In this document: in pieces, positions 10,729 through 21,544 of the stretch
Numbering within the stretch: the first letter of the stretch is position 1
How the letters are laid out: every line of letters begins with the position of its first letter
Assembly (NCBI GenBank): GCA_013697275.1
Contig: JACCXC010000056.1
Location: 1 to 38,626 of the forward strand
Direction: 5' to 3'
Length of the DNA stretch: 38,626 nt
Source of the DNA: Actinomycetota bacterium
Lineage (GTDB): Bacteria > Actinomycetota > Thermoleophilia > Gaiellales > Gaiellaceae
Made by a program: the position numbers and the translations under genes
The notes under the pieces: model-generated
Database searches by the model: none
What the model was told of the DNA's origin: nothing
What the model saw: the letters and a program-made list of their open reading frames with translations, nothing else

Positions 10729-11684
10729 GGGTCGTAGTCGTTGGTGGGGGCTCTTGGGGCTCGGTCTTCGCAGCTCTGCTCGCCGAGCGCGGCCACGAGG
10801 TGGTCCTCGCCTGCCGTGACCCGGAGCAGGCTCGCGCGATCGTCGCGACAGGGCGGAACCCGCGTTACGTCCCGGACGTCGACCTCTCGGGCATCCGGGC
10901 GCTGTCGCTCGCCGATGCGCCGCTTGCGGAGGCCGAGCTCGTGGTCGTCGCCGTCCCCAGCCGCGCCTTCGGAGAGGTCGTGCGCTCGTTTCCGCCAGGC
11001 GAGGCCCCCGTTCTCAGCCTCGTGAAGGGCCTCGATCCTGACACCGACGAGCGCCTTTCGTGCCTCGTGCAAGGGCGTCCTGCCGCCGTCCTCTCGGGTC
11101 CGAACCACGCGGAGGAGATCGGTGCGGGGTTGCCCGCGGCCGCCGTGATCGCTTGCGTGGACGAGGCGCTCGGGCTCCGCCTCCAACACGCGGTGATCTC
11201 GCCGCGCTTCCGCGTCTACATGAATACGGATGTCGTGGGAGTCGAGCTCTGCGCGGCGGCAAAGAACGTGATCGCCATCGGCGCCGGAGCCGCGGACGGC
11301 CTCGGAATGGGCGACAACGGCAAGGCTGCCCTCGTGACTCGCGGTCTCGCAGAGATGTCCCGCCTCGGCGAAGCCGCGGGCGCGCGGCCGGAGACCTTTG
11401 CGGGACTCGCCGGGATGGGCGACCTGATCGTGACGTGCTGGAGTCGTCACAGTCGCAACCGCCGCGCCGGCGAGCTGATCGCCCTCGGCGCCTCCCCCGA
11501 CGAGGCGCGCGCGACGATCGCGATGGCCGTCGAGGGGCTCACGACGGCTCCGGCCTTGCGCGACCTCGGCCGCCGCCTCCGGATCGAGCTCCCCATTACC
11601 GAGGCCGTCTGCCGCGTGCTCGAGGGCGAACGCGTCCGCGAGGCGGTCGGGGCCCTCATGGAACGCCCTCCGACCGAGGAGTGA
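10725..11684 (+). CDS. gpsA: Glycerol-3-phosphate dehydrogenase [NAD(P)+]
   Basis: MRVVVVGGGSWGSVFAALLAERGHEV; LSGPNHAEEI; CAAAKNVIAIGAGAADGLGMGDNGKAALVTRGLAEM. Confidence 0.96.
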   Translation: MRVVVVGGGSWGSVFAALLAERGHEVVLACRDPEQARAIVATGRNPRYVPDVDLSGIRALSLADAPLAEAELVVVAVPSRAFGEVVRSFPPGEAPVLSLVKGLDPDTDERLSCLVQGRPAAVLSGPNHAEEIGAGLPAAAVIACVDEALGLRLQHAVISPRFRVYMNTDVVGVELCAAAKNVIAIGAGAADGLGMGDNGKAALVTRGLAEMSRLGEAAGARPETFAGLAGMGDLIVTCWSRHSRNRRAGELIALGASPDEARATIAMAVEGLTTAPALRDLGRRLRIELPITEAVCRVLEGERVREAVGALMERPPTEE

Positions 11685-11704
11685 CGACAACTACAGTGTG
11701 GGGC

Positions 11705-13153
11705 GTGCGCCAAGTCGCAGCTCTGGCCGCCCTCACGCTCGCCCTCCTCGCCGCCGGCTGTGGCGGCGAAGGGAGCGCAGTCGGCGGCGCGGCCGACGTC
11801 GCCCCGGCTGATGCTCTGGCGTTTGTCGCGCTGGACACTGATCTTGACGGTGATCAGTGGAAGCAAGCGCAGGATCTCGCCGCCAGGTTCCCGTCGGGCC
11901 GGGACGCGTTCCAGAGCTTCATCGACGAGCTCGCCCAGGATGACCTCGACTTCGAGACGGACGTCAAGCCGGCGCTCGGGCCGGATGCCTACCTCGTCGT
12001 GCTCGCGGCCGAGACGGACGCCGGCGGGCCGCGAGCTGCGTTCCTAACACAGCCTGAAGACCCGGCGAAGCTCGACGAGCTCCTCGAGCGAAGCGGCGAG
12101 GAATTCGTCAAGGCGGAGATCGACGACTGGACGGTCGTCGCGCAGGACGAGGCAACGCTCGCTGCGCTGCGCGCTCGTGACGACTCCCTGGCGGACGAAA
12201 GTGCGTTCGAGGACGCGATGGGCAAGCTGCCCGAGGAGGCGCTCGTCCGCGTGTTCGTGGATGGCGGTGCCCTTGCGCGCCAGACGGAGAGAAGTGGCGG
12301 CCTCGACGAGGGAGAACGCGCGGCGGTGGACTGTCTCGGTAGCGAGGGCGCTGGCGGTGCTTCCGCCTTTGCGCTCTCGGCCGAGGACGGCGGCGTGCGT
12401 CTCACTGGAGTCACCAAGAGTGGAGAAACCGACGGTCCGGACTCGTCCTCCTCCGAGCTCTCGTCGAGCCTCCCGGGCGGTGCTATCGCCCTTGTCTCGA
12501 TCAATGGCCTCGGCGAGCAGGCCCGTCGCGTCCTTCGCTGCCTCGCCGACACGGACGAGGAGGTCGCACGGCAGATCGCTGCTGCAGAGCTGGGCCTCGG
12601 GGTCTCGATCGACGAGGACGTTCTGCCGCTCTTCGACGGCGAGACTGCGGTGGCGGTCTACGAAGGAACGACTCCTGCCGTCGTCGTCGCATCCGAGGTC
12701 GAGGACGAGGAGAAGGCTCGCGCCACCCTCGCGCGCATCATCGAGCGCGCGAGCGCGTTCCTCGACGAGATCGAGGCCGAGGGCGTCTCGGTGGGCGGAC
12801 TGCAGGCGTCACGCCTGACGATTCGCGGAACGCAGGTCTTCTACGCCGTAACGGACGGAAAGCTCGTCGTCACGTCGAGCGAGGAGCTGCTCGCCTCGGT
12901 TGCCGAGGGGGGCGGCGCACTGGCCGAAGACGACGCGTTCCGCGCAGCTGCCGAGGCGGCCGGCGCGCCCGACGAGACGGCCGGGCTCCTCTTCGCGGAC
13001 CTGGAGAAGCTCGTCGGCCTCGCGCTCGGGCTCTCCCCGGCTGATGTCCCGGCCGAGGGAGCGGCCAACCTCGAGCCCCTCGAGTCGCTCTTCCTCTGGG
13101 GCGAGCACGACGTCGACTGGTTCACGTTCGAGGGCCTGCTCGGGATCGACTAG
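11705..13153 (+). CDS. DUF3352-like secreted lipoprotein
   Basis: Lipobox MRQVAALAALTLALLAAGCGG; repeats such as DVAPADALAFVALDTDLDGDQWKQAQDLAARFP typical of DUF3352; the GTG start has TACAGT 7 nt upstream. Confidence 0.7.
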   Translation: MRQVAALAALTLALLAAGCGGEGSAVGGAADVAPADALAFVALDTDLDGDQWKQAQDLAARFPSGRDAFQSFIDELAQDDLDFETDVKPALGPDAYLVVLAAETDAGGPRAAFLTQPEDPAKLDELLERSGEEFVKAEIDDWTVVAQDEATLAALRARDDSLADESAFEDAMGKLPEEALVRVFVDGGALARQTERSGGLDEGERAAVDCLGSEGAGGASAFALSAEDGGVRLTGVTKSGETDGPDSSSSELSSSLPGGAIALVSINGLGEQARRVLRCLADTDEEVARQIAAAELGLGVSIDEDVLPLFDGETAVAVYEGTTPAVVVASEVEDEEKARATLARIIERASAFLDEIEAEGVSVGGLQASRLTIRGTQVFYAVTDGKLVVTSSEELLASVAEGGGALAEDDAFRAAAEAAGAPDETAGLLFADLEKLVGLALGLSPADVPAEGAANLEPLESLFLWGEHDVDWFTFEGLLGID

Positions 13154-17831: not shown

Positions 17832-18404
17832 GTGCCGGAGGTCGAAGGCCAGATCCGCGACGAGAAGCTCGATGCCGAGCGCGAGGCGCGCCGGAAGATC
17901 GCGCTCGCCCAGGTGCGGCAGTACCCGGATGCGGTACTCCGGATGCGCGCGAACGAGGTGGAGGCGTTCGACGAGCCGCTCGGGGCGCTCGTCGAACGGA
18001 TGGGCCGGCTCATGCAGGAGGCCCGGGGCGTCGGCCTGGCGGCTCCGCAGATCGGAATCCTCCAGCGCGTGCTCGTCTACCAGCTCGCCGACGACTCGGC
18101 GCTCGTCCCGCTCGTGAACCCGCGGATCGTCGCCCGAGGAGAGGAGCTCGAGACGCTGGACGAGGGGTGCCTCTCGCTCGGCGCCGCGACGGTCGTCGTC
18201 CCGGTCGAACGGTCGGTGGCGGTCACGCTCGAGGCGAGCTCTCCGACCGCTGAGCCGGTCACGATCGAGGCGGAGGGTCTCGAAGCGCGCGTGATCCAGC
18301 ACGAGCTCGACCATCTCGACGGCGTGCTGGCGATCGACCGCACGACGCCCGAGGCGCGCAAGCGGGCCCTCGCCGAGCTCCGCCCGCAGCCCGTTCTCGG
18401 GTGA
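17832..18404 (+). CDS. def: Peptide deformylase
   Basis: GVGLAAPQIG, EGCLSLG, HELDHLDG motifs; GTG start with TAGACT 6 nt upstream. Confidence 0.95.
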   Translation: MPEVEGQIRDEKLDAEREARRKIALAQVRQYPDAVLRMRANEVEAFDEPLGALVERMGRLMQEARGVGLAAPQIGILQRVLVYQLADDSALVPLVNPRIVARGEELETLDEGCLSLGAATVVVPVERSVAVTLEASSPTAEPVTIEAEGLEARVIQHELDHLDGVLAIDRTTPEARKRALAELRPQPVLG

Positions 18405-19189
18405 GGCTAGCCGTCGCGGCGACCGCTTCGCTCGGGGCGGCCGTCCTCGAGGGGCTGGCGGCGCGGCACGACGTGGAGCTCCTGCTCACGCGTCCCGATC
18501 GCCCGCGCGGCCGAGGGCAGCGGGTGGGCGCCCCGCCGGCCAAGGAGGTCGCCGAGCGGCTCGGCATCCCGGTCGCCCAGCCCGAGCGGCTGACCGAGGT
18601 TCCCGGCGACGCGCCGGTCGTGATTGTCGCTGCCTACGGCGCGCTCGTGCCCGGGAGCCTCCTCGGCGAGCGGCTCTGGTTGAACGTCCATCCCTCGCTC
18701 CTTCCGCGCTGGCGCGGCGCTGCGCCGGTCGAGCGGGCGCTCATGGCCGGGGACGCCGAGACCGGCGTGACGATCCACAGAACGACTGCAGAGCTCGACG
18801 CAGGGCCGATCGCGGCTCAGCGGGCTTTTCCGGTCGGCCGCGAGGAGGATGCCGGCGCGGTCTACGACCGGGCGGCGCAGGTCGCGCTCGAGCTTCTGGA
18901 CGAGGTGCTCCCGGAGCCGACCTTCGCCCCGCAGCCGACGGAAGGGGCTACCTACGCGGAGAAGATCCGGCCGATCGACCGCGAGCTCGATCTCTCGTGG
19001 CCTCCCGGAGAGTTGCACAACCGGATTCGGGCGCTCTCGCCGCACATCGGCGCCCGGACACAAGTCGATGGTCGGCGGGTTCTCGTCTGGCGCTCGCGCG
19101 TCGTCCAAGGGCGCCTCGAACTCCTCGAGGTGCAGCCCGAAGGCGGGCGGCGCATGCCATACGAAGCCTTTCTGCGCGGCGTCCGTTAG
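18401..19189 (+). CDS. fmt: Methionyl-tRNA formyltransferase (short, about 262 aa)
   Basis: LNVHPSLLPRWRGAAPVERALMAGDAETGVTIHRT; RGRGQRVGAPPAKEVA; adjacent to def. Confidence 0.95.
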   Translation: MRLAVAATASLGAAVLEGLAARHDVELLLTRPDRPRGRGQRVGAPPAKEVAERLGIPVAQPERLTEVPGDAPVVIVAAYGALVPGSLLGERLWLNVHPSLLPRWRGAAPVERALMAGDAETGVTIHRTTAELDAGPIAAQRAFPVGREEDAGAVYDRAAQVALELLDEVLPEPTFAPQPTEGATYAEKIRPIDRELDLSWPPGELHNRIRALSPHIGARTQVDGRRVLVWRSRVVQGRLELLEVQPEGGRRMPYEAFLRGVR

Positions 19190-19319
19190 TAACGGTCCGC
19201 GCGTGGGTAGGCGCGTAGTGCCTCGTCCGAGTCGGGCACGACCGCTCTGGGAGGCGTGCGTATGACGTAACGAGTGGGTCTTTTCGCCGACCGGCAACAC
19301 TCGGAACCGGGGGAACTAA
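19190..19319 (+). promoter_or_regulatory. Structured 5' leader; possible c-di-AMP (ydaO/yuaA-like) riboswitch
   Basis: 130-nt intergenic region directly upstream of a secreted protein; 3' end TTCGCCGACCGGCAACACTCGGAACCGGGGGAACTAA resembles the ydaO 3' conserved block from memory; hairpin GTGCC...GGCAC within it. Confidence 0.38.
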
Positions 19320-21494
19320 ATGCCTCTCCATCGTCTTGTCGTTGCAGTTTTGCTTTGTGCCGGGCTCGCAGTCGGAGCGGCGGGCGGGTCGTCCGCATCG
19401 TCTTCGACCACCGGCTCTTCGACCTCGCTGACCGTCACGCTCGATCCTGTCGAAGCGACCGCGCTCGACTGGACGACGACGGCCACGCCGACCGATCTCG
19501 GCGAGGCGATCACGTTCTCGATCGAGGACGGATGGGCCGCACACTCGTCGTTCTGGCAGGTTCAGCTGCCTTCGGGTGACTGGCTCCAGCTGCTCTCGGA
19601 CGGAAGCGTGGCCGTCCTTCGACCATGGCCCACAGACGGCCCTGTCAGCGCGGACACTCCCACGACCGGCGCCGAGCCCACCGCGTCCGAAGGAACCTCC
19701 TCCGCCTCGGACGGCACTGAGCCGGGAGTGTCCGGAGAGCTCACGGCCACCCCCGACCCGGACGGGGTCTACTACACGGACGAGACCGTGTCGACTCCTT
19801 CGACCGACGAGTCGATGTACGCCGAGAGCGGTTACTCCGACCCGGCCGCGCTCGACGGCGTCTCCGACACGAGCGCTGAGGCAGACGCGAAGGCGGCGGG
19901 TAGCGGCGACATGTCGTCGGACGCCCAGTACTCCTCCGACCTTGAGGCGGTCTACGACGGTGCCAATGTCGCGTATCCGGGCGCCGACGGCCTCTCCGCA
20001 CTGCACGACCGGCTGGCTTCCCTCTCGGGCGAGATCGTCGCCTGGCTTCCCGCCCCGACGGCCGTGGACGCCGCAGGAACGAGCGTCCCGGCCTGGTTCT
20101 CCGTCTACGGGGACACCATCACGCTGACTGTGGACTCGGGCGGCTGGTACGACCCGAATCCCTACGATTCGGCGTCTCCGTCCGAGTCGACGACAAGCTC
20201 CGCGGATCCGGGCTACCGCTATCCGTACGGCTACGCCTATCCGCTCCAGGCGAGCTCCGAGGCCATTGCGAACCCCGACGCGAACAGGGCGCCCAGGGCC
20301 GAGTGGCCGAACCTCGCCCCGCCGAGCTGCCCGACCCTCGGGCGAGTCTCGACGCACAACCCGCATGGCTGGAACCGGCTCGTGAACGCCTTCGCCACGT
20401 GGCCGGCGACCTGCACCCGCTACTACACCGAGATTCCCGGGAACACCGGCCCGCGAGGCACTCCTCCGTGCAATAAGTACAAGCGGACTTTCGCCTCGGG
20501 CCGGGCGGAGGGGATCCGCGCGCGCAACAGCTGGCCGGCCGTTCGGCGGGCGCAGAGTCGTTTCGCGGCAGCCGCGTCCTTCCACTGGTGCTCCTGGGGA
20601 CTGAACAGCACGGCTCGGGTCAACGTCCGTGAGATCGCGAGGCAGTTCCGGACGAACATGTACAACGCAGGCTTCCGCGTGGCGGCGGGTGACACGTGGG
20701 TGATCGACGAGCTGCCGGAGACCGTCAGGCGCAACGGCACGATGCGAGATCGCTTCGAGTTGCTCGTCCGCTACCTCTACCGGCCGAGCACCTCGTTCAG
20801 GCCGGCGCCCGGGATCGCGTGGGTGCAGGTCGAGTGGCCGGAGAAACGTCTCGACAAGGTCGACACGATCACGTCGGCGACGGAGACGATTCGAGAGTAC
20901 AAGGCATCGCTCAAGGACTGGTCGGCCGATCCAACCTTCTTCGCCTCTGTCAGGCCGTACGTCCAGCTCTGGGGGACGGAGGTGTACACGACCTGCCGCT
21001 TCGCCTGCCTCTCGGGGGCGACGGTGGCACAGAAGGCGACGCGCGTGAACCAGTACATGCAGCATCACGCGCGCCTGGCCTTCGCTCCGGGTGCGCCGAA
21101 CACCGCCCTCGAGGAGTACTTCGATGCGAGCTACTTGCCCTTCGGGAACGCGTTCTGGCGGAACTCGACCTACCGGACGGAGAGCCTGAGTGCGGGCCAG
21201 ATGATGCGGCTCGTCAGCCTGCAGATCTTCGCGACGAGATCGTGGGCCCACTCGCACGACTATCCCGACCGGAGGATCGGCTTCGCCTGGAACGAGCAGG
21301 CGGGCACCGACTCCGAGGTGAAGGGGCTCGCCAAGCGGATCGCGGTTGGGCTCCAGGGGGCCTACAGCTACAACGGGCAAGCGCGGTTTGCGTGCAGCAG
21401 CAACTCGAGGGTGACCGACCGGCGCCTCTGCGATTCGGTAGCTCCCGCACCAGACTGGCACGCGGACTGGGACGTCTTCGGGTCCTGGAACTGA
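19320..21494 (+). CDS. Large secreted protein of unknown function (signal peptide, Ser/Thr/Asp-rich linker, Trp/Arg-rich C-terminal domain)
   Basis: 724 aa; MPLHRLVVAVLLCAGLAVGAAGGSSA signal peptide; low-complexity middle; C-terminal domain not recognised. Confidence 0.75.
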   Translation: MPLHRLVVAVLLCAGLAVGAAGGSSASSSTTGSSTSLTVTLDPVEATALDWTTTATPTDLGEAITFSIEDGWAAHSSFWQVQLPSGDWLQLLSDGSVAVLRPWPTDGPVSADTPTTGAEPTASEGTSSASDGTEPGVSGELTATPDPDGVYYTDETVSTPSTDESMYAESGYSDPAALDGVSDTSAEADAKAAGSGDMSSDAQYSSDLEAVYDGANVAYPGADGLSALHDRLASLSGEIVAWLPAPTAVDAAGTSVPAWFSVYGDTITLTVDSGGWYDPNPYDSASPSESTTSSADPGYRYPYGYAYPLQASSEAIANPDANRAPRAEWPNLAPPSCPTLGRVSTHNPHGWNRLVNAFATWPATCTRYYTEIPGNTGPRGTPPCNKYKRTFASGRAEGIRARNSWPAVRRAQSRFAAAASFHWCSWGLNSTARVNVREIARQFRTNMYNAGFRVAAGDTWVIDELPETVRRNGTMRDRFELLVRYLYRPSTSFRPAPGIAWVQVEWPEKRLDKVDTITSATETIREYKASLKDWSADPTFFASVRPYVQLWGTEVYTTCRFACLSGATVAQKATRVNQYMQHHARLAFAPGAPNTALEEYFDASYLPFGNAFWRNSTYRTESLSAGQMMRLVSLQIFATRSWAHSHDYPDRRIGFAWNEQAGTDSEVKGLAKRIAVGLQGAYSYNGQARFACSSNSRVTDRRLCDSVAPAPDWHADWDVFGSWN

Positions 21495-21503
21495 CGCAGG
21501 ACT

Positions 21504-21533
21504 ACGCGGGCCCGGCTTTGGCCGGGCCCGCGT
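21504..21533 (+). terminator. Strong terminator-like hairpin after the secreted protein gene
   Basis: ACGCGGGCCCGGC-TTTG-GCCGGGCCCGCGT, 13-bp perfect stem with 4-nt loop, 10 nt after the stop codon. Confidence 0.7.
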
Positions 21534-21544
21534 ATCGTCTCCCC

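Follow-up and report, generated by a model that had tools for sequence, protein, structure and literature searches.

The 724-residue protein studied here, encoded on the + strand at positions 19320-21494 of a 38,626-nucleotide stretch of Gaiellales DNA (the whole of which we call the window), is best read as a fast-evolving, divergent member of a secreted, glycosidase-like barrel family. In the explanation that we favour, and in which we place middling confidence, it is exported and built on a (β/α)8 barrel, belongs to a Gaiellales family that is not yet catalogued, and is most likely active on carbohydrates in the manner of glycoside hydrolases (GH), either at the wall or outside the cell. 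Soils commonly contain Gaiellales, of which very few members have been cultured; the papers found that name them together with glycoside hydrolases are, judged by their titles, community surveys or reviews. An unrecognised secreted barrel family would offer a concrete and testable clue to how Gaiellales handle polymers outside the cell, and a candidate for a new CAZy family; if it were inactive or a generic barrel, it would be an ordinary lineage-specific secreted protein. Since the family is small, is known so far from one soil actinobacterial group and is absent from the public libraries searched, we regard it as a lead, though a modest one, to an enzyme family not described before.

The protein and its family

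The original prediction had placed a 724-residue open reading frame at this site, and its coordinates and length were borne out when read from the sequence, with ATG as the start codon; GGGGGAAC, a plausible ribosome site, stands directly 5' of the ATG. At the level of sequence, the reality of the gene on the + strand is supported because homologues occur in many genomes. An antisense open frame of 837 residues (18948-21461, - strand) overlaps it; no homologue support like that of the 724-residue gene was found for this frame, which was treated as a probable by-product of high GC3.

Consistently with the signal peptide that had been proposed, the 13-residue Kyte-Doolittle mean reached 3.04 near residue 6 and stayed at or below 1.21 past residue 40; no lipobox was seen by eye in the signal region (MPLHRLVVAVLLCAGLAVGAAG). 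The Ser/Thr/Asp-rich middle that had been described was found at residues 106-205 (17% S, 13% T, 13% D; net charge -20), and a small beta-like patch lies at about residues 206-280 of the N-terminal half. Among the 102 other genomes of the taxonomic family no clear homologue of this half was detected, the single marginal match (E 6e-4, 28% over 92 residues) carrying an in-frame stop. Residues 331-724 have a net charge of +17 and contain 4.1% W, 10.2% R and 8 Cys, in agreement with the folded, Trp- and Arg-rich, Cys-containing C-terminal domain of the original prediction, and were modelled as a barrel.

Table 1. Features of the 724-residue gene and its flanks (positions in the window).
Feature	Position	Strand	Basis
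fmt-to-ATG spacer, 130 nt, putative leader	19190..19319	+	shuffle folding, Rfam, promoter scan
Sec-type signal peptide (predicted), about residues 1-25	19320..19394	+	hydropathy peak at residue 6; MPLHRLVVAVLLCAGLAVGAAG
N-terminal half, residues 26-330, S/T/D-rich, acidic, linker- or spacer-like	19395..20309	+	composition; no Pfam match
C-terminal (β/α)8 barrel domain (predicted), residues 331-724 (394 aa)	20310..21491	+	homologues, profile match, AlphaFold2 models
Candidate acid/base, Asp463-Glu464 at the β4 end (most family members have Asn-Glu)	20706..20711	+	alignment, strand assignment
Candidate for the second catalytic residue, Glu554-Val-Tyr556 at the β6 end (both Glu and Tyr invariant)	20979..20987	+	alignment, model
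Asn610 and Trp613 on β7 (Asn where clan GH-A has the nucleophile Glu)	21147..21158	+	alignment, model
Trp657 on β8, GFAW motif, Trp invariant	21288..21290	+	alignment, model
Strong GC hairpin between the 724-residue gene and rsmB, possible terminator	21499..21540	+	-37.3 kcal/mol, z -5.6

Searches of Pfam, NCBIfam, PHROGs and PDB sequences with the window protein, its relatives and the derived profiles returned nothing significant, the best library matches being at chance level (GGDEF_2, 0.007, below the cut-off; LAGLIDADG_3, 0.044; F-spondin, 0.29). The claim that the protein belongs to no recognised family thus survived its check, as no confident match linked the C-terminal domain to any characterised family. 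The description of the protein as an orphan had to be given up: homologues are spread through Gaiellales, and its own genome contains a paralogue, a second copy of the C-terminal 394 residues at about 30% identity (E 6e-19).

A survey of phylogenetic distribution had been suggested along with the original prediction. Homologues of the C-terminal domain were present in 20/103 genomes of the protein's own taxonomic family (tblastn matches of the window domain to the family, E 5e-27 to 8e-11), and a family profile from which the window protein had been excluded matched it over 356 columns with an hhalign probability of 99.9% (E 4e-35). Profile searches, which scored a few leading candidates in each genome and may therefore undercount, recovered the family in at least 24 of 399 genomes of the class, one of them belonging to another family and the rest to the same family or order, and in at least 2 of the 397 genomes sampled across the phylum, namely its own genome and one of the same family. 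The named relatives are MAGs labelled Gaiellaceae, Gaiella, Thermoleophilaceae, Thermoleophilia or unplaced Actinobacteria. A short archaeal match (26% over 88 residues) was taken as chance, and a plasmid, phage or viral origin of the gene was rejected, no viral, phage or plasmid match having been found.

The usual layout in the family is a signal peptide, the barrel and then Ig-like-looking repeats (weak, below-cut-off Pfam matches, e.g. Big_13), with a subset of relatives having the barrel alone (e.g. L003, L009, L010, L014); a hydrophobic N-terminal leader was recognised by eye in nearly all relatives examined. Comparison with the family (own-genome paralogue L002; L004, L011, L025-L036) showed that the window protein has in common with it the signal peptide, the barrel of about 370 residues and the invariant Glu-x-Tyr, Trp, Cys and GFAW positions. 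The order of parts in the window protein is the reverse of that in most relatives, which begin with the barrel and continue with the Ig-like repeats: a unique S/T/D-rich part of 300 residues comes first and the barrel last. Moreover, it is 22-29% identical to the family in the alignment and has an extra β5-β6 insertion and four extra Cys. The branch leading to its domain is very long (3.14 changes per site vs a median of 0.28), and the tree gave it no firm place. The window protein is a real, strongly diverged member of a barrel family of Gaiellales and near kin that is unnamed in the libraries searched.

The canonical member of the same genome, L002 (G000:C138, 428-2878), is 76% identical to L011 and has C-terminal repeats. 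The family is worth a biochemical test, for which this paralogue is a better structure or assay target, and the window member a harder starting point. In L023, L006, L017 and L019, duplicated C-terminal repeats follow the barrel with the pattern CYxxKVxxVxxxGYxWDG...C, apparently a second uncatalogued secreted repeat.

Predicted fold and residues of the barrel mouth

An AlphaFold2 model built with 13 sequences predicted eight strands alternating with helices in the canonical member L025 (pLDDT 87.4, pTM 0.90), and the model of the window domain has the same strand order at lower confidence (pLDDT 68, pTM 0.76). The fold comparison of the C-terminal domain that had been advised at the outset gave weak TIM-barrel matches in the PDB (Foldseek TM ≤0.41 by query length, ≤0.55 by target length), glycoside hydrolases and other TIM barrels being nearest and none of them close: for the window model a GH20 module (the best), GH164, GH5, GH51, TrpA and TIM, and for the L025 model GH18-type endo-N-acetylglucosaminidases, GH168, GH10, GH5, isomerases and aldolases. 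With good confidence, the models thus predict that the family domain is a (β/α)8 barrel close to no solved structure. Because the matches are weak and heterogeneous, with TrpA, TIM, aldolases and xylose isomerase among them, a glycosidase function does not follow from the fold alone; the recurrence among them of glycosidases (GH5, GH10, GH18, GH20, GH164, GH168) was counted in favour of the carbohydrate-active reading.

The presence in the same list of xylose and rhamnose isomerases, psicose epimerase and class II aldolases would also suit a secreted TIM-barrel enzyme with a chemistry other than glycoside cleavage, such as a lyase, an epimerase or isomerase, an esterase or a phosphoesterase. 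We consider such an enzyme unlikely, since the listed isomerases, epimerase and aldolases are mostly cytoplasmic metal enzymes, whereas no metal cluster is obvious in the family, its lone conserved His lies outside the mouth and is lost in the window protein, and the conserved set is rich in Trp, as in sugar-binding clefts.

We defined the mouth of the barrel, for the purpose of this analysis, as the last three residues of each strand together with the next five. In the L025 model, conserved D/E/N/Q/H/K/R/W/Y residues occupied 11/64 mouth positions vs 10/311 elsewhere (Fisher p 1.4e-4), the mouth set comprising Glu70 (β3), Asn114-Glu115 (β4), Gln158 (after β5), Glu193-x-Tyr195 (β6), Asn249 and Trp252 (β7) and Trp297 (β8). 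Four acids are near-invariant in the family, three of which are at the mouth, and the window protein keeps two of those three.

How far the window member has drifted from this set bears on a further reading, in which the family is enzymatic and the window member is a degenerate paralogue whose barrel binds wall or environmental polysaccharide without catalysis. Its very long branch points in this direction, as do the replacement of the β3 Glu by Ser and of the β4 Asn by Asp, the loss of the β5 Gln and of His66, and a retention of conserved residues that is no higher at the mouth (10/14) than elsewhere (20/27). Against degeneration stand the β4 Glu464, the β6 Glu554 and Tyr556, the β7 Asn610 and Trp613 and the β8 Trp657, all of which are kept, together with a fully open frame, a codon usage near that of its neighbours and 8 Cys, the family's conserved Cys among them. 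Overall, we find a degenerate paralogue rather doubtful. As the mouth retains its conserved residues no better than the rest of the domain, conservation does not mark catalysis out as preserved; the window protein may still have an activity.

Comparison with known glycoside hydrolases and possible activity

In GH5, the mouth has Asn-Glu on β4, His-x-Tyr on β6, Glu on β7 and Trp on β8. The family resembles clan GH-A and GH5 (PF00150 type), many members of which are secreted, in its TIM barrel, in the Asn-Glu at the end of β4 (the GH-A acid/base site, at which the window protein has Asp-Glu), in the x-x-Tyr of β6 and in the Trp of β8. It differs from them at β7, where the nucleophile Glu is replaced by an Asn that is conserved in at least 95% of 23 relatives and shared by the window protein, and at β6, where Glu occupies the position of His; moreover, Foldseek scores are weak, and homology to GH5 was rejected on the absence of profile similarity (hhalign 1.3% against a GH5 alignment, positive control 99%) and of any Pfam match to PF00150.

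With clan GH-K (GH18, GH20), the family has in common the TIM barrel, an acidic β4 residue, the β6 Tyr and the β8 Trp, and GH20 and GH18-type structures are among its top weak Foldseek matches; in contrast to that clan, it has Asn-Glu and no DxE motif. Homology to GH18 was likewise rejected (hhalign 0.3%, no Pfam match to PF00704, DxxDxDxE at β4 absent from the family alignment). GH20 enzymes have Asp-Glu at β4, and in GH18 the β6 Tyr and the β8 Trp also occur. A GH18/GH20-type hydrolase of peptidoglycan or another wall polymer, with substrate-assisted catalysis through the β4 Asp-Glu and the β6 Tyr, would accommodate the GH20-like Asp-Glu of the window protein, the GH20 module as the best match of its model, the GH18-type endo-N-acetylglucosaminidases among the matches of the canonical member and the GH18-like Tyr and Trp of the family. 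It is nevertheless very unlikely in our judgement, since the residue pair of the family as a whole is Asn-Glu, neither DxE nor DE, the TM scores are low and similarity to the GH18 profile is absent. The family may work like a glycosidase, and we file it under neither clan GH-A nor clan GH-K.

In the carbohydrate-active reading that we favour, the signal peptide would direct export of the protein, and the acidic S/T/D-rich half would present the barrel on a flexible spacer or on a linker spanning the wall. The conserved Trp residues of β7 and β8 would bind a sugar, which would be cleaved with the β4 Glu464 as acid/base and the β6 Glu554 as its partner. Because it has lost the β3 Glu and the β5 Gln and has Asp-Glu for Asn-Glu at β4, the window member probably acts on a substrate other than that of the canonical paralogue of its own genome. 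The more specific proposal of a new, Gaiellales-specific GH family with a GH-A-like mouth, in which the β4 Glu would work with a β6 Glu in place of the usual β7 nucleophile and of which the window protein would be a divergent branch with a different substrate, is tentative and rather doubtful.

Genomic place and transcription signals

Consistently with the housekeeping surroundings that had been described, Pfam matches identified priA-def-fmt upstream of the gene and rsmB-rpe-ribD downstream. In all relatives with both genes readable (29/29), fmt lay directly beside rsmB, never more than 190 nt away, and the gap was about 100 nt in the relative with the closest rsmB (80% identity); here (region 18401-21544 of the window) the gap is 2.36 kb and contains the 724-residue gene. 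Thus, the gene interrupts an otherwise constant pair of translation genes, and the simplest reading is that it was inserted or moved between fmt and rsmB in its own lineage. Its GC3 (0.82-0.89) and its codon index, inside the neighbours' range or near it, gave no clear foreign signature, so that recent foreign DNA was set aside as its source. No shared neighbour genes were seen around family members among the 12 loci inspected.

The original prediction had also inferred an independent transcription unit from a leader of the gene's own and a strong downstream hairpin. The hairpin was confirmed (Table 1), and the other signals were not: it has no U-tract and no intrinsic terminator was called there, while the spacer 5' of the gene was no more structured than its shuffles (z +0.82) and contained neither an Rfam match nor a sigma-70-like consensus promoter. 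An RNA leader or riboswitch in the spacer was therefore rejected, and, for the same reasons, we grade an independent transcription unit as plausible. Elsewhere in the window, a 697-residue open reading frame (11060-13153) matches DUF3352 (PF11832, E 6e-21), a protein of unknown function.
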